64,000 nucleotides of DNA from Bacteroidaceae bacterium (GTDB lineage Bacteria > Bacteroidota > Bacteroidia > Bacteroidales > Bacteroidaceae). Shown piece after piece: positions 5,141 through 57,824 of this stretch (its first letter is position 1; every line of letters starts with the position of its first letter). The translations under genes and the position numbers were made by a program. The notes under the pieces are model-generated. The model made no database searches and was not told the origin of the DNA. It saw nothing but the letters and a program-made list of their open reading frames with translations. The stretch lies in assembly GCA_017559845.1 (NCBI GenBank), contig JAFYQQ010000014.1, forward strand, positions 62,001 through 126,000, read 5' to 3'.

Positions 5141-5175
5141 CTCATAACTCATAGCTCACCGCTCACCGCTCACCG
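5141..5175. repeat. Heptamer array CTCAYNG (TGAGCGG on the minus strand), five copies
   Basis: Five consecutive 7-base units (CTCATAA, CTCATAG, then three CTCACCG) end 3 bases from the stop codon of the minus-strand beta-helix gene. Read on the minus strand, each unit contains TGA. Because 7 is not a multiple of 3, the array places stops in all three frames. Related arrays occur at 46336-46370 and 46961-47001. Confidence 0.8.
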
Positions 5176-12500: not shown

Positions 12501-14232
12501 ATACGGGATACTGGTCTTCTTCGGCGTTCTGGTACCAGACGGGAGCGAACGAGAATTCAGAACCGTTCAGCTTGTATGCCACGGCTCCGCTTGCCAACTG
12601 GCTAGCGTCAACGGCGGTGGCTAGTGCGTCGTCCATGTTGCCTTCGCAGCCGGGAGTGCTGCCTTCCAGATAATAGTTGTTAACAATCTGAGAGGGGTTG
12701 CTGCATTCATACTTGCCCACAATGGCATTCATATAGAGAGGATTGGGTGCTACGGTGCTGATCTGGCCCACGCTCAAACAGTTGTAGAGACGGTAGAAGC
12801 CAGACTTTGCACGGCCCACGATGCCGGCCAACTCGCATTTGTCCCATTCGGTCTTGCAGACCAGCTCGCCATAGTTGGCACAGTTTGAGATGATACCGTT
12901 GTTGCTGTATCCGGCCACGGCGCCATAGCTGTCGCCCGAGTTGCAGTTTACGGTGATGGTGCCGTAGAAGGCGCAGTTGTCCACCCAGGCGTCAGTACGC
13001 AAGCTGCCGATTACACCACCGCACTCGTTTGAACCTTCGGCACGGATGTCGATGTCCAGGTAAGAGTGAATGTTGTACATCTTACTGTCTGTGTCGGCAT
13101 AGGCAACCACACCGCCTCGGCCGCCGTTGGTCACGATCTGTCCCTTGATGGTCAGGTTCTGCAGTACGGCGCCCACGCCCAATCCGGCAATGAAGGCATC
13201 ACCGGTAACGGTGCTTGTACCCTGTGCGGGACCGTCGCAAAGGAAGTTACTGATGGTGAATCCCTTACCGTCAAACGTTCCCTTGTAGGGCTTTGAGTCA
13301 TTACACTCGCGGATGGGAGTCCAGGGACGGTTTTCCATGTCAATGTCGGCAGTCAGCGCTGCGTTCAGATTGGCGAAACCAGAGTTTACGCGCTGGGCAA
13401 ACCAGAAGAGGTTACCGGCGTTGGCAATCTGGTACACGTCGTCCACCAGTTCTGGGACCTCATAGGGCAACTGGCAACCTTCGTCCTTGCAGAAGCCGTT
13501 CTCATAATTGTGGTCGCCGGTATCGGCAACGGGGGGGAACAGCTCGTCGAATGTCAACGCACGGCTCCAATAGGCCAGCTGCGACACTTCCATGGTGTTG
13601 TATTCGCCGCTCTCGTCGCAGAAAATTAGACCGTAGCCGTTCTGCAAATTGTAAAAGCTGGGCAAATAGGAGCCTTCCACCAGAATCTTTCCGTCCATAT
13701 ACGTGGTGGGGCAACCGTCCTTAACGGTGAGGACGATGGTGTGCCACTCGTTCAGCGTAACATAACCGCCGTATCCGAAACCGCCGATGCGGAGTCCCAC
13801 CTGGCCATCCTTGTTGATGAACAAGTCACCGTCGGTCTGGTTGTCGGGGTTGGTCTGCAGCAAGGCGTGATAGTAAGAGTGTGTGTTGATGCGCACGTTC
13901 CACATCAGGGTGTAGTTGCTGACCTCCTCTGTTGTGCCCACGTTCATCTTGAAGATGTCGCCCGGCTGAACGGTGATGGCGCGGTCTTCGGCCGAAGGTC
14001 CTTCGCTCTGCACCATTCCGTTTTCGCCGATGGTGAAGGTGTTTTCTCCGGCAAGGCCCTTCTCAATGTTGATTACAGAACCGGCAATGGTATTTGCCGT
14101 CAGGTCTTCCGCATTCTCAAAGTCCCATTGGCCGTCGGCCTTTGGTCTCAAACTGGGGTCGTACTGCGCAAAAAGGGCAGCACTGGTACCGGCCAGAAAA
14201 GCCAGCGTTGAAAGTAGTCGTTTTGTTTTCAT
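9556..14232 (-). CDS. Giant secreted LamG/GLUG multidomain protein with sorting-like C-terminal tail
   Basis: A 1558-residue exported protein. I chose the ATG at 14232 because it directly precedes the signal peptide MKTKRLLSTLAFLAGTSAAL; an in-frame ATG 17 codons upstream lies too close to the promoter. Domains in order: LamG-like lectin fold (about 25-235), a C-x-DEGC linker, a GLUG-like module (about 260-560) closely resembling that of the neighbouring phosphodiesterase, a helical FIVAR-like stretch (about 600-735), a beta-sandwich-like region (about 740-900), a second helical stretch, then two further LamG-like domains (about 1100-1290 and 1300-1500) sharing YTLMWN/YTMMWN and TYMDGK/SYMDGK signatures. 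The tail is IYNLMGQKVKKP then LYIINGKKTIVK. No catalytic motif is visible, so it is more likely a surface adhesin or glycan-binding protein than an enzyme. Confidence 0.75.
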   Translation of the reverse strand: MKTKRLLSTLAFLAGTSAALFAQYDPSLRPKADGQWDFENAEDLTANTIAGSVINIEKGLAGENTFTIGENGMVQSEGPSAEDRAITVQPGDIFKMNVGTTEEVSNYTLMWNVRINTHSYYHALLQTNPDNQTDGDLFINKDGQVGLRIGGFGYGGYVTLNEWHTIVLTVKDGCPTTYMDGKILVEGSYLPSFYNLQNGYGLIFCDESGEYNTMEVSQLAYWSRALTFDELFPPVADTGDHNYENGFCKDEGCQLPYEVPELVDDVYQIANAGNLFWFAQRVNSGFANLNAALTADIDMENRPWTPIRECNDSKPYKGTFDGKGFTISNFLCDGPAQGTSTVTGDAFIAGLGVGAVLQNLTIKGQIVTNGGRGGVVAYADTDSKMYNIHSYLDIDIRAEGSNECGGVIGSLRTDAWVDNCAFYGTITVNCNSGDSYGAVAGYSNNGIISNCANYGELVCKTEWDKCELAGIVGRAKSGFYRLYNCLSVGQISTVAPNPLYMNAIVGKYECSNPSQIVNNYYLEGSTPGCEGNMDDALATAVDASQLASGAVAYKLNGSEFSFAPVWYQNAEEDQYPVLDNTHGLPYTVGENSGSINDEASYVAYRDLLVEDIRQNCEQKTATQSLIDAMNQMADQIAQTGTLEDFRAIFDEYMSNKKAYAESVQAYADYAAKAQEAILFLEEHQDIEGTYRQLVEEYLNEAVEPGTFPNGSYSYIMEQHTLSTEEIKKETEYIDILLNQAVNGGYVAGSDITSLVTNPTFRQGREGWTGTGCEYNTSLPIVQAWGTTFDLSQTFTDLKNGVYEVKMNALYRAAEDDNSRFYTSYIYANGNITPIMNTQEDPISMDEAEDGVNCYITEAGTYPYDFILNEKYYYPNSLDGAAIAFKAGRYENRVIVNVTDGKLTIGIRGEGTNNTGYDWTAFNNVRLYYQGEIAEAEEAITNTLSQQVERAEILLTAEISSGEDYGRYPNFSKALREELQATVSAAASASDAQAAYELTEKFSALFAQIQDCQKGYIEMLTQCNTYTDTYNDLYTLGIITEDEYNQIINTITGLFMQYESGDIAAEDIPTILESLKPQVKNPAPDARWTFEDASNFMANAVADSPFSIEPGTAGSNSYTLGENTISATAGPGYGDEGAVTIHKGDILQLNLDNTEDKGSYTLMWNIRIPVVGNYYCLLQTYANNEDDATIFINKNGQIGRAVGGANFYSTTSITPSEWHRIVVTVDNGVPTSYMDGKFLKTGNQCDFFYLHEGRCLIFCDNDGEYNEMEVSEIAYWNRTLVDVEIEKYFADYQQNINDNTVYPEPMAQFDFNAADVLKNSKGSEQTMQTGKLTENIFGLEDFELETISGMDEEDGAVRIHGGEVLQFNLGSEEEVNDYTMMWNVRIPDFSSFRGLLQTDNQNADDSQMFINSNSAIGRGTIFGYGGSVSLDTWHHIMLVVRNGVACAYLDGVRVASGLKAHNAYTLNGGKCMLFCDNDGEVADIDVTQFAYWNRGLTNEEVSHHYANYKEHMTTGIESVAAEGTQTGNKLSGIYNLMGQKVKKPAKGLYIINGKKTIVK

Positions 14233-15892: not shown

Positions 15893-16009
15893 GTTTAAAA
15901 CCTCATTTTATTGGGTGTTTTTTGCCCTTTTGGCCTTAAAAGCATAAGGAGTAAGCGAGTAAAAATGTTTTACATTATACCCGCGGCAACAGAACTAAAC
16001 GAGAGATGC

Positions 16010-16917: not shown

Positions 16918-17036
16918 TTTACATCACTATGTAAATGGATTTACACAACTATGTAAATGCGTTTACATAACTATGTAAAACCATTTACATTTAAGGGTAA
17001 ATACGTTTACATTTCAATAAAACCGAAATGTAAACG
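16918..17036. repeat. 22-bp phased array of TTTACAT...ATGTAAA units
   Basis: Four units of exactly 22 bases start at 16918, 16940, 16962 and 16984. A fifth, longer unit runs 17006-17036. Each contains TTTACA and TGTAAA or TAAA arranged as a near-palindrome. The unit length equals that of the CAGTTG and CTTAAG arrays elsewhere in the window, but the word is different. Confidence 0.85.
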
Positions 17037-30781: not shown

Positions 30782-30975
30782 AGTGCTTAAATTGTTGTAG
30801 CACAGTGCTATAAAAGTTTTTTCTCTGTGGTAAAAGTTTTGTTCCAGCTGATGAAACGTACATTCCAGCTGATGAAACGTACATTCCAACTGATGAAACA
30901 TACGTTCCAACCGATGAAACGTACGTTTCAGCCGTTGAAACAAACTTTTCACTGTTAACAAAAAACTTTTTCAGT
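30782..30975. repeat. Extended phased array (AGTGCT at 22 bp, then six 21-bp units)
   Basis: AGTGCT occurs at 30782 and 30804, 22 bases apart. AAAAGTTTT-type words follow at 30812 and 30832. Six units of exactly 21 bases then start at 30842, 30863, 30884, 30905, 30926 and 30947, the first three nearly identical (TTCCAGCTGATGAAACGTA), the later ones decaying. AAACTTTT at 30942 and 30963 keeps the phase. It lies downstream of the frdCAB terminator in the 829-base gap 30672-31500, which also holds the candidate RNA. Confidence 0.85.
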
Positions 30976-41957: not shown

Positions 41958-42058
41958 TTTAAGCCGTTGTTGAGTTGTAAACTACAAAGCTAAAAGAATG
42001 TTTTTCAACGATTTTGGTTGAAAAATGTCCTGGAAAGGAGGAAAAAATCGGCATTTTT

Positions 42059-42089
42059 TTTGCGTGTTTCTTCAAATTGCCTATATTTA
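42059..42089 (+). promoter_or_regulatory. Promoter of the 1213-residue secreted protein gene
   Basis: TTTG (42059-42062) and TATATTTA (42082-42089), one base off the -7 consensus, are separated by 19 bases. Transcription from about 42096 supports the downstream ATG at 42139 as the start. Confidence 0.45.
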
Positions 42090-42138
42090 CACGGAAAATG
42101 CGAAAATTATATTGTTTTTAACTTTAAAAAAAGTGCTT

Positions 42139-45100
42139 ATGAAAAAAATTACATCTCTTCTGTTTGCATTGATTTGTCTTTGCAATACAGCGGTTTGGGC
42201 ACAACCAACTGATTTTGGTGAACCCCTTATTCTTGACGCAGCTCAGTTGAGCAGCCCGTTTAGCGACTCTGCCGAGGGTACAGACATTGGTGCCCTTTGC
42301 GATTTTGATTTCGGAACGTTCTGGCATTCAGACTGGCACGGCGAAGTTGCCGGCGATTACCATTGGCTTCAGATTGAATTGCCCGAGGCAATGGATGGTA
42401 AGATGGTGTTGTGGATCAAGCGCCGTACTACTGATAATGACCACCCCAGCGTGGCTGTGATTACCGGTTCTCTTACCGCCGATTTCGGCATGGAAATTCC
42501 CATTGACACACTGGAACTGGGCAACGCCTCTTCCGGTCAGGAATTCACCACCGGTACATGGGTGATTCCTGAGAAGGTCAAATATCTCCGTTTCACCCCC
42601 ATAAATTGTAGCCCTGAGTTCCGCACATTCTGGCACGCTGCAGAAATCAACCTTTATCAGCCCGGCGAGTTCGAACTGTATCAGAAGCTGATGTCGGATT
42701 TGCTGAACCAGTATGACGCTTATCTGTGGGGCGAAGATTTCAACATCGGTACCTTGCCCGGACAATATACAAATCAGGAAGCCGCAGACGCTTTCCTTGC
42801 CAACTTGAAGTATATCGAGCAGATTTTGGCCGAAGAAGTTGATCGTCCCAGCAACGAAGAAATCGAAGCGCTGATTCAGCAGACTCAGGACTATTGGAAC
42901 GCTTACCAGGCTTCTAAAGTAGAATATACCCTTCCTGCCGACGGTTACTACCGCATCATTGCCAACCTGGATTACTACAAGACCGTGGATACCGGTGAAG
43001 TGGACGAGTTCGGTGAACCCATTACCGAGCGTATCGACGGCATCAAGAAGTCAATGTATGCCAAGATGGACAGTCTGGCTGCATGGCACACCCTGGATAT
43101 GGAAGACTGCCGCGACGTATGGTATATTACCCGCAACGAGGACAATACCGTCAATATGATTAACGCTGCCACAGAAATGGGATTCTATCAAATGGGAAGC
43201 CCCATCAGAATGCACATTGCCGACAGCGCAAAGGTGATGAAGATTGACTGGGCAGGTAAGGAAGAAGTTACCTTCAATGGCGAAACCAAGGAGCGCGACA
43301 TTCTTTACATCCGTAAGGACGGCGATCCCACCAACGGATACTACATCCACCAGTTGAGCCATAGCCGCGGTGCCGGTGAAGGCGATAACCTGTGTGTATG
43401 GAATGCCACATTTACCTACGGCGCACCCTATGACAGCGACAAGGGTACCTCTGAATGGTTCCTGGAGCCCGTGAGCGATGAAGAGGCTCAGGCACTGATT
43501 GAGGCTTACGCCCCCATCAAGAACCACGATGTGCTGGTAATGCAGTATAAGGAAGTGCTGGGCAAGGCTCAGGCTGCCATGAGTGTTGCCAACGAGGCTT
43601 ATACCCAGGCATACATCACCAAGAACGAGCAGTTTAGTTCTCACGTGACCGAACCTAACGAAGGTTCTCTCTCTAACTTGTTGGACGGCAATTCTGACAC
43701 CTTCTGGCACAGCGCATGGAGTAGCGGTTCACGTCCCATGGGAACTCACTTTATTGACATTACATTTGACGAGCCTATCGAAGGCGACATCCACGCATGG
43801 ATTCAGCGCCGCGGCTCCAACAGCAACGATGACAACCCCACCACCTGGAACATTTACGGTTCTAACGAAGAGACCGCTCTGGAAAGCCAGGCCGACTTTG
43901 ACAATGCAGCCGAAGAAGAATGGGCCGGACAGGTAACCGCTGGATGGGAACTGATTAAGGATTCTGTTTCCACTCCCTGGTCAAGCAGCGCACCCACGGT
44001 GGTGACTCCCGACTTCAACGTACCCACTCCTTATAAATATATGCGTTTCGTCTGCATTGGAACTTCTGGTCCCAACTTCCCCGACTATAACAACCGTGGT
44101 TACTTTCACTTGGGCGGATTCCAGATTTACAAGACCCTTGGTAAACCTCAGATTGCGACCATGGGCGAGATTGGCGCTACCATGCTGGCAGAACTTGAAA
44201 AGGCAGCCGGACTGGCCGACGAGGATATTACTATTGACGACCTGAACAGCCTGACTGCTGCTTACGAGGCATTTTATGCCATCCTGAAGGATCCCACTGA
44301 AATGCGCAATACCGTTGCCAAGTATGCCAACTATCCCAACATGTTGGTTATTGGCGAAGAACCCGGTACATGGGATGGCGATGCCGAAGCCAACGCGTTG
44401 GCAGAAATCCTGACCGCTGCCAACGAGTATGACAAGGGTGGCGCTTACGATCAGGCTAAGCTGGACGAGTATGTAACCCTGATAGAGGTCGCAGCCGAGG
44501 CCTTCATGAAGGCCGCAAAGGGTGTCAGCACAGACAAGTGGTACCGTTTCCGCTTCCCCACCGAAGAAACCTATACCAAGAATGGATGGAGCAGCGGAAA
44601 CATCATCCAGAATGAAGGTTACAACATTGGTAATTTGTGGGGACAGTATGTGGCAGTGGCCAGCTTCCTGGAAACTGGTGAATACGAAGGCAATCCCGAC
44701 ATCCTGGTTAAGGAAAACGAGGAAATGCGAGAAGGTAATGCTCTGTTCTTTACCGAAATGGATGACATAAGCAACGAGGATGCTTCTCTGTTTCGTTTCA
44801 TTGCCATCGGCGATACTGCCTATATAATCCAGAATAAGGGTACAGGTCTGTATTTGAACTGTAAGAGCACCAATGACAACGATGTTTCATTGAGTCTGAA
44901 TCCAACAACCTTCCAGATAACTCCCACCGGATACGGTTCAATCCTGTTTGCTGGTAAGTCTCTGGCTGGCGAGAACAAGACTAACCTGCACGCGCAGCGC
45001 TGGAACCACCGTTTGGTAACTTGGGAAGCTACTGATCCCGGCTCTAACTCTGGTTTGTGGTTAGAGACTGTGGCCGACGTGGCTGACGATGTTGCCAAGG

Positions 45101-45780
45101 TCTTCACACGCGACTATGTGGCCGGTCAGATTTATCCCATTTGTAATTCCACTGGTGTGAAGGTGGCTGAGGGCGACGTGGCACTGTACACTGTGGCAGG
45201 CACCTACACCGAGGGTGAAGAGAACTTCCTGGCACTGAACACCATCACAGAGACTCAACCTGGTGTTCCCTACTTTGCTATCGTAGGTACCCCTGATGAT
45301 TACGTAGAAAGCGAAGAGGTTCTGGCAGATGCCTACATCTTCGAGCAGACAGGTACCGGATTTGCGGCAAAGGCTGACAGCATCAACGGTTTGATTGGTA
45401 CATACGAAGCCATGACCGTAGCCAAGGGTGTAGTGGTATTTGATAAGAATACTGCCGCTACAGCAGAAGACAAGGTTGTGGAGAACGAAGACGGTTCATT
45501 TAGCTCTGTAACCAACCGTTCAGTAGGCCGCAATAGTGCTTATCTGAAGTTTGGTTACACTCAGGCTGATCCCGCTGGCACCTACGACTTGGTAATCAAG
45601 ATTGATGGTACTCCCACTATTATGGACGGCATCCAGAATGCACTGGAAAACGTGGCCAAGAGTGGTACCGTATATGACCTGAGCGGACGTCAGGTGAAGA
45701 AGAACGCAACCCTGAACGACCTGAAGGGCCTGGGCCGCGGCATCTACATTCTGAATGGTGTGAAGGTTATGGTTAAGTAA
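42139..45780 (+). CDS. Large secreted protein with discoidin-like domains and sorting-like C-terminal tail
   Basis: A 1213-residue exported protein. The ATG at 42139 gives the signal peptide MKKITSLLFALICLCNTAVW, cut after AQ; an upstream in-frame ATG lies before the promoter. It has two F5/8 type C (discoidin)-like regions, about residues 25-190 and 500-690. Both contain DTFWHS or GTFWHS, and WIKRR or WIQRR followed by N and D residues. Helical FIVAR-like stretches sit between and after, and beta-rich regions lie at about 790-1150. The end is YDLSGRQVKK then IYILNGVKVMVK, the same class of tail as the two secreted proteins at 7-14 kb. Probably cell-surface glycan binding; no catalytic site was recognised. 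Confidence 0.75.
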   Translation: MKKITSLLFALICLCNTAVWAQPTDFGEPLILDAAQLSSPFSDSAEGTDIGALCDFDFGTFWHSDWHGEVAGDYHWLQIELPEAMDGKMVLWIKRRTTDNDHPSVAVITGSLTADFGMEIPIDTLELGNASSGQEFTTGTWVIPEKVKYLRFTPINCSPEFRTFWHAAEINLYQPGEFELYQKLMSDLLNQYDAYLWGEDFNIGTLPGQYTNQEAADAFLANLKYIEQILAEEVDRPSNEEIEALIQQTQDYWNAYQASKVEYTLPADGYYRIIANLDYYKTVDTGEVDEFGEPITERIDGIKKSMYAKMDSLAAWHTLDMEDCRDVWYITRNEDNTVNMINAATEMGFYQMGSPIRMHIADSAKVMKIDWAGKEEVTFNGETKERDILYIRKDGDPTNGYYIHQLSHSRGAGEGDNLCVWNATFTYGAPYDSDKGTSEWFLEPVSDEEAQALIEAYAPIKNHDVLVMQYKEVLGKAQAAMSVANEAYTQAYITKNEQFSSHVTEPNEGSLSNLLDGNSDTFWHSAWSSGSRPMGTHFIDITFDEPIEGDIHAWIQRRGSNSNDDNPTTWNIYGSNEETALESQADFDNAAEEEWAGQVTAGWELIKDSVSTPWSSSAPTVVTPDFNVPTPYKYMRFVCIGTSGPNFPDYNNRGYFHLGGFQIYKTLGKPQIATMGEIGATMLAELEKAAGLADEDITIDDLNSLTAAYEAFYAILKDPTEMRNTVAKYANYPNMLVIGEEPGTWDGDAEANALAEILTAANEYDKGGAYDQAKLDEYVTLIEVAAEAFMKAAKGVSTDKWYRFRFPTEETYTKNGWSSGNIIQNEGYNIGNLWGQYVAVASFLETGEYEGNPDILVKENEEMREGNALFFTEMDDISNEDASLFRFIAIGDTAYIIQNKGTGLYLNCKSTNDNDVSLSLNPTTFQITPTGYGSILFAGKSLAGENKTNLHAQRWNHRLVTWEATDPGSNSGLWLETVADVADDVAKVFTRDYVAGQIYPICNSTGVKVAEGDVALYTVAGTYTEGEENFLALNTITETQPGVPYFAIVGTPDDYVESEEVLADAYIFEQTGTGFAAKADSINGLIGTYEAMTVAKGVVVFDKNTAATAEDKVVENEDGSFSSVTNRSVGRNSAYLKFGYTQADPAGTYDLVIKIDGTPTIMDGIQNALENVAKSGTVYDLSGRQVKKNATLNDLKGLGRGIYILNGVKVMVK

Positions 45781-45804
45781 TCTGATAGTTGCTTACTTTC
45801 AATA

Positions 45805-45840
45805 GAGAAGGCTCTCCGGTAAGGAGGGCCTTCTCCTTTT
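45805..45840 (+). terminator. Intrinsic terminator after the 1213-residue protein gene
   Basis: A 13-bp stem with one wobble (45805-45817 with 45823-45835) and a short loop is followed by CTTTT. It lies 25 bases after the stop codon. Confidence 0.88.
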
Positions 45841-45886
45841 GAGAGAACATAAAAAAACTTTACACAAAAAATAGCAAAAAGTAACA

Positions 45887-45958
45887 CTTAAGTGTTTCTG
45901 CAAAATCACTTAAGTGTTACTTCGGAAAGACTTAAGAAAAACTCAAGAAACACTTAAG
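45887..45958. repeat. 22-bp phased CTTAAG array
   Basis: The palindrome CTTAAG begins at 45887, 45909, 45931 and 45953, exactly 22 bases apart. A one-base variant (CTCAAG) sits at the half-step, 45942. Flanking bases often extend the palindrome to ACTTAAGT, but the spacers differ in sequence. This is the first repeat in the 1215-base gap 45781-46995. Confidence 0.88.
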
Positions 45959-46169
45959 TCTTTTTTTGCGTATTTTCTAGGGAAATTTTACAAGATTGTA
46001 TCCTCTTGATTATAAGAAGATTGAAAGTTTTCTTCATTTCTTCCCTTGCACCAAAATCTCCTTTTTTTGTTTTTTGACAAATCGAAGGTAATGGCACGCC
46101 GATGACCGAAGAATTTTGAGCAGTGAGTTTTTGGATTAGACAGAAGAACATAAGAACATGTTTTTCGTT

Positions 46170-46222
46170 CCATCGGATATGCCATCCGATGGTGTAGAGG
46201 TGGGGATTTGCAATCCCCGCCT
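46170..46222. repeat. Pair of REP-like palindromes
   Basis: CCATCGGAT (46170-46178) pairs with ATCCGATGG (46184-46192). Next to it AGGTGGGGATT (46198-46208) pairs with AATCCCCGCCT (46212-46222). Short paired GC-rich palindromes of this form resemble REP elements mobilised by REP-associated transposases in Bacteroidetes. No such transposase is in the window. Confidence 0.6.
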
Positions 46223-46335
46223 ATGCTCTCGGATCATAGACCCTTATACCCAGAAACAGCGAATGACATCTTCGCCGTGACAAATTATAACCCAATGTAC
46301 TCTCTTCGGACGCTGCACGCAGACGTCCCTACTCC

Positions 46336-46370
46336 CTCATTGCTCATTACTCAATGCTCATCGCTCACTG
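46336..46370. repeat. Heptamer array CTCATNG, five copies
   Basis: Five consecutive 7-base units (CTCATTG, CTCATTA, CTCAATG, CTCATCG, CTCACTG), the same family as at 5141 and 46961, here without an adjoining gene end. Confidence 0.75.
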
Positions 46371-46475
46371 TCAAACATTTTTACCTTTGCCCTTCCTGCA
46401 TACATAGGTACCAAAATGAACAAAAATCATTTAAAACAGTTCAAAAAGGCACATAAATGAATGGCTAAAATAGCC

Positions 46476-46569
46476 CAACTGGAAAAAAATAATTTCTCAG
46501 TTGAAAAAAAATATTTTTCCAGTTGGGAAGTTATTTTTTCGCAACTGGGCGTTTCCAACTTCCTAACTG
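46476..46569. repeat. Second 22-bp phased CAGTTG / CAACTG array
   Basis: CAACTG at 46476, CAGTTG at 46498 and 46520, CAACTG at 46542 and TAACTG at 46564 are each exactly 22 bases apart. Core word, phase and A/T-rich spacers match the array at 15773-15892, 30 kb away. The order of orientations differs. Confidence 0.88.
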
Positions 46570-46676
46570 GAATTCCCAAATTCCTCCCGTTTGTAAAAAG
46601 TTTTTTATCCAATGGAAGGAACAAGGCGTGGCGGGCGTTGTAGGCCGTGGGAGAGTGGTTGCCTTGGATCATAAAG

Positions 46677-46946
46677 ATGTCTGGAAGACGTGGTTTTGGG
46701 GCCTTGGGTGTTTAATGGGTATAAAAGAATGGCGTCTGGAGGACGCGAATCGGTGGTGTGGGGTTGCCGTTCCTCGTCTTCCAGACGCCAGTTTGTGTTC
46801 TTGTCATATTTCCACGGGCTTGAAAGCCCGCGGCTATTCGTTTTCCCGTCTTCCAGACGGCTTTTCGCTCACGGCTCATCATAACGACAGCGAGCCTTTG
46901 CTTGTACCTGTCCTCGGTGAGATCCTGAAACGAGTTCAGGATGACG
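46677..46946. repeat. Cluster of short palindromes (GTCTNNNAGAC, CCACGGGCTT hairpin, ATCCTGAA hairpin)
   Basis: GTCTGGAAGACG or its complement or close variants occur near 46680, 46733, 46777 and 46847, the last as the perfect palindrome CCGTCTTCCAGACGG. CCACGGGCTT (46812-46821) pairs with AAGCCCGCGG (46824-46833). ATCCTGAA (46922-46929) pairs with TTCAGGAT (46935-46942). The elements are probably REP/BIME-like; no coding frame fits. Confidence 0.6.
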
Positions 46947-46960
46947 ATTGGAGGATTCGA

Positions 46961-47001
46961 TCATCGCTCACCGCTCATCGCTCACAACTCATAGCTCAAA
47001 G
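46961..47001. repeat. Heptamer array containing the S46 peptidase stop codon
   Basis: Six units of 7 bases (TCATCG then CTCACCG, CTCATCG, CTCACAA, CTCATAG, CTCAAAG). On the minus strand the first unit supplies the TGA stop codon of the peptidase gene and every later unit gives another TGA in a rotating frame. Confidence 0.78.
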
Positions 47002-49137
47002 TCCCATTTCGCGGATAAGGTGGGGTGCGTGTCCCCATTTCTCTATGAGGAACAGAACAAAGCGGATATCCACGCCGATACAGCGCTGCAGGTCGCTGTT
47101 GAAGCTGATGTCGCCGCTCATGGCTTCCCAGTTTCCGTCGAAGGCCAGTCCAATGAGCTCGCCGCGTCCGTTGAACATGGGGCTGCCGGAGTTTCCACCG
47201 GTGATGTCGTTGTTGCTGATGAAGCAGAGCTGCATCTCTCCGGTATGCTTGTCGGCATATCGTCCCCATTCGCCCTTTTGCATCAGCGCCACGATGTCGT
47301 CTTCCAACTTGTAGTCCTCAATTTCCTTCTGCTTGGCGGCCTTGTCCAGCAGGCTCTGTGCGTTGGTGAAGTAGTCGAACTTCTTGCCGCCTGCAGTGTA
47401 GTCCTGGATGAAACCGTAGCTCAGACGCATGGTGAAGTTGGCGTCGCTGTAGTGCGGGTTTTCCTGATCCATCTCCAGCAGCGCCTGGGTGAGCAGATGC
47501 TCGTTGAAGGTGATGATACGTCCCTCCTCGCGCATGCTCTGCTGTATCTGCATGAGCTTGTTGGGGATAATCTTGCACAATTTGAAGGCGGGGTCTGTCT
47601 CGCGCAGGCTGCTGTCTGCCAGCAGTCGGTCCAGACAGTCGGCCTCCTTGCAGATGGTCTTCTCAAAGAGGTGGCGTGTGTAGGCTTTGCAGTCACCGCC
47701 GAATTCTTTGTCAATGATGTTGTAGCACTCGGGCAGGAACTTGGCAGCAACCTGCTGGCGGTAGTTCTCTAGCAGCACACCCATGGTCTCCTGGTCCAGA
47801 CGTGCGTCATAGTCTTTAAAGAAGCGCTGTATGGACTCGCGGGTGGATTCAATCTGTTCCTTTCCAGCATCCTGTGATATGCGGCTCAGCATGCTGGCTA
47901 TGCGGTAGATCTCTATGCCGCGCATGAAGGTCTCGTTGTAATAACCGCTGGCGTGTACAGCCTCGCGGCGGTTGGCATAAGCCTGTTCCAGTTGTGTGAA
48001 CATCTCACCGAAACGGCGTGTCAGCTCCTTGTCGCCCTTGAACCATTGTGCCAAACGTTTTTCAAGTGCTTGCTTCTGGCCGATGACGTTGAGGTCGGCA
48101 ATGGCCTTGTTCATGCCGATGGAGTTTTTCCAGTAGTTGCTGCTGCTGGCGTATTTGCTGGCATACTTGATTCCGGTGGCTCGGTCTGCGTCCATCCATT
48201 TCTTCCAGACTTCTTGTTTCTTTCCACGTACTTGTATGGTGGATATGTTGCGGTCGTTTACGCGTTCGCTGATTCCCCACGAGCTGAGATAGCGGCTGGT
48301 GCTGCCGGGATAGCCCACGGTCATGCAGTAGTCGCCGGGACGGTATCCGTCAATGCTCACTTTGGCATATCGCTTGGGCTTCAGTGGCACGTTGTCCTTG
48401 CTGTATTCTGCGGGCTCGCCGTTCTTGTCTGCATAGATGCGGAACATGCTGAAGTCGCAGGTTTGGCGGGGCCACATCCAGTTGTCCGTGTCGCCGCCGA
48501 ACTTACCCAGCGTCTGTGTGGCGGTGAAGACCAGGCGCACGTCGCGATAGGTCTTGTACTTCGATACATAGAATGCGTTACCGCCGTAGTAGCTTCTTAC
48601 CATGCAGTCCATGCCCGGATTGGCACGACTGTATTCGCGCTCCACAGCGCTGCAGATGGAGTCGGTTTTGGTGTTGTTGATTTCCCTTGCGGGGATGGTG
48701 GGGTTGGCACGGTAGATGCTGTCCAGGGCGGTCATGATGCGCGAGGTGCATTCCTCGGTGCTTTGCAGAAAACGCACGAACAGACCCTCGGCGGGGCGTT
48801 CCTCTTCCATATTCTTTGCCACGAATCCGTTGGCCAGAATGTCATCTTCAGGGGTAGAAAGTGCCTGGATGGCACCGAAACCGCAGTGGTGGTTGGTGAA
48901 CACCAGTCCGTTGGGGCTGACAACAACGCCGGAACAGAAGTCGCCGAAGTCGACTACGGCATCTTTGAGGCTTACGCCGTCGGGGTTGTACAGTTCTGAG
49001 GGTGTCAGGGTCAGACCCAGCCCTTTCATGATGTCGGCTGTTTTCTGGTCTATACGGTTCAGCATCCACATGCCTTCGTCGGCGTGCAGATGCAAACAGC
49101 CAGCCGCCAGCAGGGCGGCGGCAAGGATTTTCTTCAT
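46996..49137 (-). CDS. S46 family dipeptidyl peptidase, DPP7-like
   Basis: 713-residue periplasmic exopeptidase that releases N-terminal dipeptides, important for peptide feeding in asaccharolytic and gut Bacteroidetes. The ATG at 49137 gives the signal MKKILAAALLAAGCLHLHAD. The chymotrypsin-like fold has the catalytic His in VFTNHHCGFGAIQ, Asp likely in GGDTDNWMWPRQTCDF, and Ser in DITGGNSGSPMFNGRGE. The P1-pocket segment reads AFDGNWEAMSGD. Gly after FD is as in DPP7 (hydrophobic P1) rather than the Arg of DPP11 (acidic P1); this assignment is inference. The gene begins 34 bases after deaD on the same strand. Confidence 0.9.
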   Translation of the reverse strand: MKKILAAALLAAGCLHLHADEGMWMLNRIDQKTADIMKGLGLTLTPSELYNPDGVSLKDAVVDFGDFCSGVVVSPNGLVFTNHHCGFGAIQALSTPEDDILANGFVAKNMEEERPAEGLFVRFLQSTEECTSRIMTALDSIYRANPTIPAREINNTKTDSICSAVEREYSRANPGMDCMVRSYYGGNAFYVSKYKTYRDVRLVFTATQTLGKFGGDTDNWMWPRQTCDFSMFRIYADKNGEPAEYSKDNVPLKPKRYAKVSIDGYRPGDYCMTVGYPGSTSRYLSSWGISERVNDRNISTIQVRGKKQEVWKKWMDADRATGIKYASKYASSSNYWKNSIGMNKAIADLNVIGQKQALEKRLAQWFKGDKELTRRFGEMFTQLEQAYANRREAVHASGYYNETFMRGIEIYRIASMLSRISQDAGKEQIESTRESIQRFFKDYDARLDQETMGVLLENYRQQVAAKFLPECYNIIDKEFGGDCKAYTRHLFEKTICKEADCLDRLLADSSLRETDPAFKLCKIIPNKLMQIQQSMREEGRIITFNEHLLTQALLEMDQENPHYSDANFTMRLSYGFIQDYTAGGKKFDYFTNAQSLLDKAAKQKEIEDYKLEDDIVALMQKGEWGRYADKHTGEMQLCFISNNDITGGNSGSPMFNGRGELIGLAFDGNWEAMSGDISFNSDLQRCIGVDIRFVLFLIEKWGHAPHLIREMGL

Positions 49138-49171
49138 TTGCATAAGATGTAGTGTGTTGTTTTTATTGGGT

Positions 49172-51064
49172 TTATTTCTTCTTGGGCTTTCTTCTTGCCC
49201 ATCCTTCTTCATCGCCGCCCTTGTTTTTCTTCATGTCGGGGTTGAGGAACGCCAGCCAGTCTTCCTTGGCATATTTTTTTCCGCGCGGACTGGTGTATCC
49301 TCTTTCCTCGCGACTGGGCTTTTTCTTTGAGGATTTTTCCTGTGCGGGTTTCTCGGCTCTGTCCTTCTTGCGTGCCTTGGTGGCTGAGGGAGCGTTGCCC
49401 TTCTCACCGCGGTCGGCATAGTCGGCCACCACGCTGCGTCCCTTCACCGTTACGCCGTGCTTCAGACCCTTGACTACGCGGTCGGCATCCGCTTCGGCCA
49501 CTTCCACAAAGGAGAAGTTCTTCATCAAGTCTATGCGGCCAATCTCCACCTTGTTGCCCTTCACGTTGTTGTTGATGAGGCCAATGATCTCACGGGCGAA
49601 CTGTCCGTCAATCTTACCCACGTTGAGGAACAGCCTTACATATCCTTCTTCCGCGGTGCGGTCTCCGCGTTTGCGTCCGCCCTCGGCCTTTCCTCCCTTC
49701 TTGCCGTCTTTACCCTTTGCCTGGGTCACGTTCTCTATTTCGGGTGCGTTGGCATAGTATTGCAGGAAGCGTCCGAACTCGCGGCTCAGTACGCGCTTGA
49801 TGAGGTCTTCCTTGTCCAACCACTCCCATCGCTTTGCCACTTCGGGCAGGAAGGGGGCAATTTCTTCCTCGTCGATCTCCACGCGTTCAATCTCGTCAAT
49901 GACATGATAGAGTTGCTTGGCGCAGATGTCTTTGGGCTCGGGCAGGACACCTTTGACAAACTCTTTCTGAATGATGCGCTCCACCTGCTTTATCTTGTTC
50001 TTCTCCTTTACGTGCACAATGCAGATGCTGGTTCCCTTTTTTCCGGCGCGTCCTGTACGTCCGCTGCGGTGGGTATAGCTTTCCGTGTCGTCGGGCATGC
50101 CATAGTTGATGACGTGGGTCAGGTCGTTCACGTCCAGGCCGCGTGCTGCCACATCGGTGGCAATGAGCAGTTGGGTGCGGTGTTTGCGGAACTTCTGCAT
50201 GGTGAGGTCACGCTGTTGCTGGCTCAGTTCGCCATGCAGGGCATCGGCGTTGTATCCGTCGCGTATCAGATTGTCCGCCACCTCCTGTGTCTCCATTCGG
50301 GTACGGCAGAAGATGATGGCGTAGATGCGGGGATAGAAGTCCACAATGCGCTTCAATGCCAGGTATTTGTCTTTGGCGTGAACCATATAATAGATGTGGT
50401 TTACGCTTTCGGCTCCTTCGTTTCTGCTTCCCACTTGTATGGTGTGCGGGCTGTGCAGGTAGTTTTTGGCAATGCGTTCGATTTCCTTGCTCATGGTGGC
50501 GCTGAAAAGCAATGTGCTACGCTCCTGGGGAACGCCCTCAAGGATTGCGTCCAGATCCTCCTGGAATCCCATGCTGAGCATTTCGTCCGCCTCGTCCAAG
50601 ACCACATGACTGATGTTGGAAAGCTGTGCCACGCCACGTTTCATAAGGTCAAGCAGTCGGCCCGGTGTGGCTACAATGATGTCCACTCCTGCCTTCAAAG
50701 CACGAATCTGCGGTTCAATGTTGGCACCGCCATAGACAGCCAGAATGCGCAGCGAGGGCATGTGCTTGGAGAAACCCTCAAGATCATCGGCAATCTGCAG
50801 GCAAAGCTCACGGGTAGGACTGAGAATAAGCGCCTTTGGTCCGCGGGCTTCCACCGAGCGCAGTTTTTCCAGCACAGGAAGTCCGTATGCTGCGGTCTTT
50901 CCGGTTCCGGTTTGTGCCAATGCAATCAAATCAACGTTGGGGGTGTCTTGGGATAGTAACCAGGGAATCACCTCTTCCTGAACAGGCATGGGGTGTTCGT
51001 ACCCCTGCTCTTCAATGGCTTGCAACAATTCTTCGCACAAGCCTAATTCTGCAAAAGTCTTCAT
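49172..51064 (-). CDS. deaD: DEAD-box ATP-dependent RNA helicase with DbpA-type RNA-binding domain
   Basis: 630-residue cytosolic RNA helicase from the ATG at 51064, beginning MKTFAELGLCEELLQAIEEQ, the Q-motif region. Walker A is AQTGTGKTAAYG; the DEAD box is VVLDEADEML; SAT is LFSATMS; the C-terminal RecA domain has TDVAARGLDV and HRSGRTGRAGKKG. At about 480-560 an RRM-like DbpA/CsdA domain (RLFLNVGKIDGQFAREI, NFSFVEVAEADADRVVKGLK) is followed by a Lys/Arg-rich tail. It is probably involved in ribosome assembly or cold adaptation. It diverges from the patatin gene; both promoters lie in the 87-base gap. Confidence 0.94.
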   Translation of the reverse strand: MKTFAELGLCEELLQAIEEQGYEHPMPVQEEVIPWLLSQDTPNVDLIALAQTGTGKTAAYGLPVLEKLRSVEARGPKALILSPTRELCLQIADDLEGFSKHMPSLRILAVYGGANIEPQIRALKAGVDIIVATPGRLLDLMKRGVAQLSNISHVVLDEADEMLSMGFQEDLDAILEGVPQERSTLLFSATMSKEIERIAKNYLHSPHTIQVGSRNEGAESVNHIYYMVHAKDKYLALKRIVDFYPRIYAIIFCRTRMETQEVADNLIRDGYNADALHGELSQQQRDLTMQKFRKHRTQLLIATDVAARGLDVNDLTHVINYGMPDDTESYTHRSGRTGRAGKKGTSICIVHVKEKNKIKQVERIIQKEFVKGVLPEPKDICAKQLYHVIDEIERVEIDEEEIAPFLPEVAKRWEWLDKEDLIKRVLSREFGRFLQYYANAPEIENVTQAKGKDGKKGGKAEGGRKRGDRTAEEGYVRLFLNVGKIDGQFAREIIGLINNNVKGNKVEIGRIDLMKNFSFVEVAEADADRVVKGLKHGVTVKGRSVVADYADRGEKGNAPSATKARKKDRAEKPAQEKSSKKKPSREERGYTSPRGKKYAKEDWLAFLNPDMKKNKGGDEEGWARRKPKKK

Positions 51065-57565: not shown

Positions 57566-57811
57566 TCGGAAGTGTTCTCCCAAGTTGGGAGCGGCTTCCG
57601 ACACGTAAAAAATGCTCTCCCGGGTTGGGAAACGATTTCCTGAACTCAAAAAATGCTCTCCCGGGTTGGGAAACGATTTTCTGAACTCAAAAAATGCTTT
57701 CCCGGATTGGGAAACGATTTTCTGAACCTAAAAAATGCTATCCCGGGTTGGGAAACCATTTTCGGAACGTCGGAAATGCTCTCCCGAGTTGGGAGCGGAC
57801 TTCCGACGCGT
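57566..57811. repeat. Six-unit 41-bp tandem array
   Basis: Six units of exactly 41 bases start at 57566, 57607, 57648, 57689, 57730 and 57771. Each has CTCCC...TTGGGA at the same place; the first and last units instead form a wider palindrome with GTCGGAA and TTCCGAC. 41 is not a multiple of 3, so any frame through it rotates and no protein is encoded. It fills most of the 319-base gap 57506-57824 between convergent genes. Confidence 0.93.
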
Positions 57812-57824
57812 CTGATCGTAAGGA

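Follow-up and report, generated by a model that had tools for sequence, protein, structure and literature searches.

A dispersed CTTAAG element with a 22-bp step in Bacteroidaceae, and arrays of similar step in other Bacteroidales

Known repeat systems and the CTTAAG element

The known systems that come closest are two repeats of Porphyromonas gingivalis, BrickBuilt and MITE464, which are built on 23- and 41-nt arrays, 22-nt arrays also being mentioned for strain W83 (PMC4596501). Like the CTTAAG element described here, BrickBuilt and MITE464/PgRS are intergenic repeats of Bacteroidales present in 10-20 copies, with a leader and a tail flanking a tandem array and with predicted long stem loops (PMC4596501). 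REP and BIME sequences resemble it in being dispersed palindromes, mostly 3′ of genes, hairpin-capable and variable between species (PMC3733652). What it shares with intrinsic terminators is a hairpin with T7 behind it, read on the same strand as the upstream gene. Iterons and multi-operator arrays consist of direct repeats near two helical turns, whose pitch is kept and whose word differs between replicons; the CTTAAG array likewise has direct repeats about two turns apart, with constant pitch and, between families, a changing word.

The element departs from each of these. Unlike BrickBuilt/MITE464, it has no IS5-like terminal inverted repeats that we could find, it is built of short dyad words with an additional half step, its array is under purifying selection, and its pitch is common to many unrelated families across the order. 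Where REP/BIME have one or two palindromes of 20-40 bp, it has four phased words at 22 bp, and the REP tag GTAG or CGTC is absent from its aligned consensus. Unlike intrinsic terminators it has an A+T-rich stem, a conserved loop of 14-16 nt, a further hairpin and conserved flanking DNA on either side, and unlike iterons it occurs in tens of chromosomal copies, with no adjoining initiator or regulator gene at the locus studied here. The layout of the element is thus akin to that of known repeats; what is new is the order-wide pitch rule.

The locus lies in a 64,000-nucleotide stretch of the genome of a gut Bacteroidaceae bacterium (the window; positions below are those of the window). A sequence-only reading had placed CTTAAG at four positions exactly 22 bp apart, a variant at the half step, and a CAGTTG array in the same gap, all of which is borne out. 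The four words occupy 45887-45892, 45909-45914, 45931-45936 and 45953-45958 by pattern match, and the half-step word, CTCAAG here, lies 11 bp past the start of word 3 at 45942-45947; sequence and copy comparison give CTCNAG in most copies, and it is between words 3 and 4 that half-step words are best kept in this form. Independently, Tandem Repeats Finder reports period 22 at 45883-45959 and period 11 at 45925-45958. The CAGTTG words start at 46476, 46498, 46520 and 46542, again 22 apart, and a degenerate fifth at 46564 completes an array of five CCARYTGG words (46476-46569) that belongs to a second dispersed family.

The whole CTTAAG element is ~232 bp long (45851-46082, forward strand), its limits being those of the conserved block among 18 aligned copies of the window's genome (G000) and among 35 copies from two species (G000 and its sister species G032). 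Alignment delimits an A-rich leader with a conserved CTTTACACAAAAA (45851-45880). If transcribed, words 1-2 are predicted by RNA folding to form a hairpin with a 15-bp stem (45880-45921), and RNA folding with arm complementarity predicts a second, terminator-like hairpin formed by words 3-4 with T7 behind it (45924-45967). Comparison of copies and orthologs then shows a spacer of ~85 nt, near-constant in length and free in sequence (45968-46052; 88-90 nt in most copies by the measure used there), and column conservation marks a right box in which AAAATCTCC and a T-rich stretch precede the terminal TTTTTTGACAAAT (46053-46082).

The element starts 70 bp past the stop codon (45780) of a forward-strand gene (42025-45780) for a protein of 1251 aa that matches F5/8 type C (discoidin) weakly and has a sorting-like tail at its C terminus; this gene has its own GC-rich terminator at ~45807-45840. 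On the other side of the gap is a convergent S46 peptidase gene (46996-49212, reverse strand; Pfam PF10459, E 1.6e-226). No sigma-70 promoters were found in the gap. As in REP sequences, a position 3′ of genes is the rule: in a hand count over both genomes after merging orthologs, with simple ORFs as gene calls, the upstream gene was on the strand of the element at 16 of 19 unambiguous loci (p 0.004), and its stop codon often falls 0-25 bp before the leader.

Copies and constraint

A search of the window's genome finds 24 matches to CTTAAG-N16-CTTAAG and none to the reversed control pattern. When the gap was left free between 4 and 34 bases, the pitch was exactly 22 bp in 24/25 CTTAAG pairs of that genome and in 33/34 of the sister genome; the pooled 57/59 close pairs give a binomial p of ~1e-82 against an expectation of 1 in 31. 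The array is not due to chance, and the whole-helical-turn spacing of phased operator arrays is found in it.

CTTAAG forms a dispersed intergenic family of ~18 loci in the window's genome, with ~20 copies of the element per genome in G000 and in G032, two assemblies of many contigs and about 92% completeness, and none in the 35 other genomes of the same genus and 24 genomes of other families that were searched. In some cases a contig ends directly past a CTTAAG element. That CTTAAG might be a widespread word was rejected, CTTAAG-N16-CTTAAG being found 0 or 1 time in 147 sampled Bacteroidota genomes, as rarely as controls. The CAGTTG family (word CCARYTGG, centre AC or GT, pitch 22; ~45 loci) has the same species range, bar one weak match. 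Its centre is nearly always AC or GT and flips from unit to unit, the self-complementary GC and AT being rare (5/93); adjacent words have the same orientation in 38 cases and the opposite in 24 (p 0.10). At many loci a CTTAAG element is followed ~400-1200 bp downstream by a CAGTTG array (G000 contigs C7, C69, C26, C35, C58 and C50; G032 contigs C79, C83, C12, C52, C53 and C69), seemingly above chance.

Orthologous copies in the two species show how the parts of the element evolve. Over 11 ortholog pairs, minus one with a unit loss, the array differs at 10/780 sites (1.3%); over all 11, divergence is 2.9% in the leader, 4.6% in the 200 bp upstream and 14.5% in the spacer, or 52/595 (8.7%) for the spacer in the seven gapless pairs (Fisher p 2e-11 for array versus gapless spacer). 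In the neighbouring S46 gene 91/700 third codon positions (13%), 11 first and 2 second positions differ. Since 1.3% lies well below both 8.7% and 13%, the array, whose conservation exceeds that of the adjacent spacer and third codon positions ~7- to 10-fold, evolves well below the neutral level and is under strong purifying selection, although gene conversion among copies could contribute to its conservation. At the window locus the sister has kept the CTTAAG and CAGTTG words at 100% identity.

Register is kept as well. The array at G000:C35:6132 lacks exactly one of the 22-bp units of its ortholog at G032:C12:112642 and remains in register; likewise, the two predicted hairpins stay 22 bp apart and the spacer keeps its length up to the right box while the sequence changes. 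The spacer had looked replaced or hypermutated, but a hypervariable cassette was rejected for most pairs because the 8.7% of the seven gapless pairs, mostly transitions, is not above the neutral level of 13% at third positions; the ~85-nt segment is mostly unconstrained spacer of fixed length. Three pairs stand out with ~28-38% divergence. In three ortholog pairs (G000:C61:17872/G032:C7:69410, G000:C7:107941/G032:C15:650 and G000:C1:14029/G032:C27:10519) the spacer is ~55-61% identical between far more similar flanks and arrays, and no donor of the replaced sequence was found for these three. Across the gap at 45780-46996, the whole 1.2 kb is ~99% identical to sister locus L205 (G032:C15) except in the ~85-nt spacer, in contrast to the 13% third-position difference in the adjoining S46 gene.

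The 22-base step across Bacteroidales

The sequence-only reading had predicted a genome-wide autocorrelation peak near 22 bp. We scored, per intergenic region and lag, the presence or absence of a strong ungapped self-match in 464 kb of the window's genome (the window and 400 kb of stretches; 149 intergenic regions). The peak was found: lag 22 occurs in 17/149 regions, lag 21 in 5 (partly heptamer repeats, which were removed ahead of the dyad test below) and lag 23 in 2, counts that are biased towards constant pitch since the scan detects gapless arrays alone and misses those with indels. Lags 19, 20 and 24-27 occur in none, shuffled sequences give ~0.06 per lag, and the total for lags 21-23 is 24 against 1 for the six lags 17-19 and 25-27. 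Eighty loci of other named Bacteroidales gave 10, 28 and 14 regions at lags 21, 22 and 23 with many different words, 52 against 10 for the same six lags; harmonics appear at 44 and 46. Array density, counted per 10 kb of intergenic DNA, is 5.6 in the window's genome, 4.3 in named Bacteroidales, ~2 in other families and orders and 1 in other classes, the last all from one genome; none was seen at lags 21-23 in 24 kb of E. coli K-12, the non-Bacteroidales controls being small.

The CTTAAG family is therefore one of many families in Bacteroidales with different words at a step of ~22 bases, and the earlier proposal that the pitch of the class is fixed and its word varies stands in part. Unrelated words do share the pitch; the word, however, varies by family or lineage rather than by locus, as the CTTAAG, CAGTTG and Bacteroides families are each dispersed. 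The last of these, represented by an array of the TTTACCTCGTAGTGTAA family at locus L140, has ~15 copies in its genome, and a Parabacteroides array (L088) has two. The peak does stand at 22, but the pitch ranges over 21-23 and some arrays have 41 bp. Nor is a palindromic core general: CTTAAG is a dyad, but among 73 arrays (mean z 1.6) 27% are clearly palindromic at p<=0.05. In arrays of other Bacteroidales the words are kept while spacers vary. Together these results suggest that the step length, and not the word, is the shared rule. We found no description of an order-wide fixed-pitch class in the open-access papers searched.

Word swapping between sisters at the same gap, suggested as a check, was seen once and at another locus, where it is confounded by an extra gene. 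The gap after an OmpA-like gene in G032 holds a CTTAAG element as a ~250-bp block, and the matching gap in the window's genome (16768-19109) is occupied by a 651-aa gene together with a TTTACAT array of 22-bp pitch, which fits array turnover between sisters and not a clean swap. A TTTACATnnCTATGTAAA array of pitch 22 lies at 16918-17014, with a second copy at 15975 of locus L186; the sister gap has a CTTAAG element. The same comparison by way of the S46 gene of named relatives was dropped, as synteny is lost beyond that gene and the gap is not comparable; in one of them (L065) a CAACGTGTTG array of pitch 22 lies directly past the S46 gene.

Other repeats of the window have related or different periods. 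An array with TTCCAGCTGATGAAACGTACA at pitch 21 (30812-30970; second copy at 12899 of locus L202) has dyads alternating about every 10.5 bp. A 41-bp array around CCCGGG (57587-57815), with dyads ~20.5 bp apart by eye, would follow the same rule with two alternating words. Heptamer repeats of CTCATTG/CTCACCG type, found at 5148 and 46336, at 46957 and in many intergenic regions, differ between the sister species by 7 or 14 bases.

Proposed phased protein sites and rival explanations

Our leading explanation, which we hold tentatively and at somewhat less than even confidence, is that the arrays of CTTAAG, a dispersed, lineage-specific element kept by selection, are phased dyad sites for a candidate DNA-binding protein at the 3′ ends of genes. 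The arrays would act as double-stranded DNA. A putative dimeric protein, probably a different one for each word family, would bind dyads 22 bp apart, with weaker half sites at 11 bp, and all bound copies would thereby lie on one face of the helix: 22 bp makes two turns and 11 bp one because bacterial DNA has ~11 bp per turn in vivo, as reported (PMC8501960). A cooperative complex 3′ of a gene would act as an insulator between this gene and the next or halt polymerase. In the CTTAAG family alone, transcribed words 3-4 with T7 would also form a hairpin like that of an intrinsic terminator, and transcribed words 1-2 a protective one.

A less probable account, although a serious one, takes the copies simply as transcribed 3′ ends: words 1-2 would stabilise the transcript as a hairpin, words 3-4 and T7 would act as an intrinsic terminator, matched by a weaker one that reads in reverse from the opposite strand, and the step of 22 nt would reflect no more than the length of stem plus loop. 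The array folds with z -6.9 over its whole length, and across 25 distinct copies the outer arm of word 3 complements that of word 4 in 84-100%, whereas past the first base pair the arms of word 3 itself pair together in just 0-8%. Between the orthologs G000:C61:17872 and G032:C7:69410 a compensatory change turns AAGTG/CACTT into AAGAG/CTCTT. T7 is conserved, the same-strand position after a gene is shared by 16/19 loci, and the predicted fold supplies the stem-loop and T run of an intrinsic terminator on the transcribed strand; the stem, however, is A+T-rich where such terminators are G+C-rich. Left unexplained by this account are the pitch of 21-23 that unrelated families have in common, the conservation of the loop word and of the right box beyond T7, and the orientation flips of CAGTTG. 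Moreover, the gene at the window locus already has a GC-rich terminator upstream of the element, a terminator scan did not flag the array, and Rfam covariance models matched it only far below gathering scores; a guide RNA or known RNA family was rejected, as Rfam support is absent.

For the class as a whole we favour phased protein sites; for the CTTAAG family, where DNA and RNA roles may coexist, we favour them together with a terminator role. The DNA reading is preferred because unrelated words share the pitch (lags 21-23), because register is preserved between the hairpins and after the loss of one unit, because CTCNAG is conserved despite lying in the would-be RNA loop, and because CCARYTGG flips show no preference for RNA pairing. 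Against it, part of the class has no measurable palindromy, and the orientation bias and T7 run are better explained by transcription.

That the element is a minisatellite-bearing, non-autonomous transposon of the MITE type, as BrickBuilt is, its array a passenger repeat spread by transposase, we consider improbable. Its ~20 dispersed intergenic copies, each a tandem 22-bp repeat with leader and tail, do combine the dispersal and internal repeats of a MITE; P. gingivalis has MITEs with 22-, 23- and 41-nt repeats (PMC4596501), and at the one locus differing between sisters, after the OmpA-like gene, the ~250-bp block between flanks homologous in the window's genome is nearly exactly the element. 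That locus, however, has the extra gene in the other species and is therefore not a clean empty site. Terminal inverted repeats do not exceed those of shuffled ends (mean 7.3 versus 6.4, 95th percentile 9), and target duplication is not consistent, a shared 6-mer standing outside both ends in 7/30 copies, with flanks of A+T-rich DNA. Most copies are orthologous between the species with far-diverged spacers and are therefore old, and the array is constrained, not neutral. A mere mutational habit of Bacteroidales of duplicating ~22-bp stretches into functionless arrays would explain the many unrelated words and the non-palindromic arrays, but it is very improbable, and for CTTAAG already disfavoured, against the ~7- to 10-fold conservation of the array, words kept while spacers vary, and multi-copy dispersed families with biased orientation relative to genes.

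Beyond the CTTAAG family, the preferred reading of phased DNA sites extends to a broader proposal, possible but rather unlikely: an order-wide, undescribed class in which fast-changing words always stand two helical turns apart and are read by a candidate family of DNA-binding proteins, themselves evolving fast, whose role would be to organise or insulate the ends of genes. A half-turn change of spacing would be a direct test of the pitch rule. If the pitch is what is conserved, the class escapes ordinary sequence-similarity searches because every lineage uses other words. Were the proposal true, repeats described species by species, among them those of 22, 23 and 41 nt in P. gingivalis, would belong to a single system, and screening genomes by spacing could chart the class across this dominant gut order.
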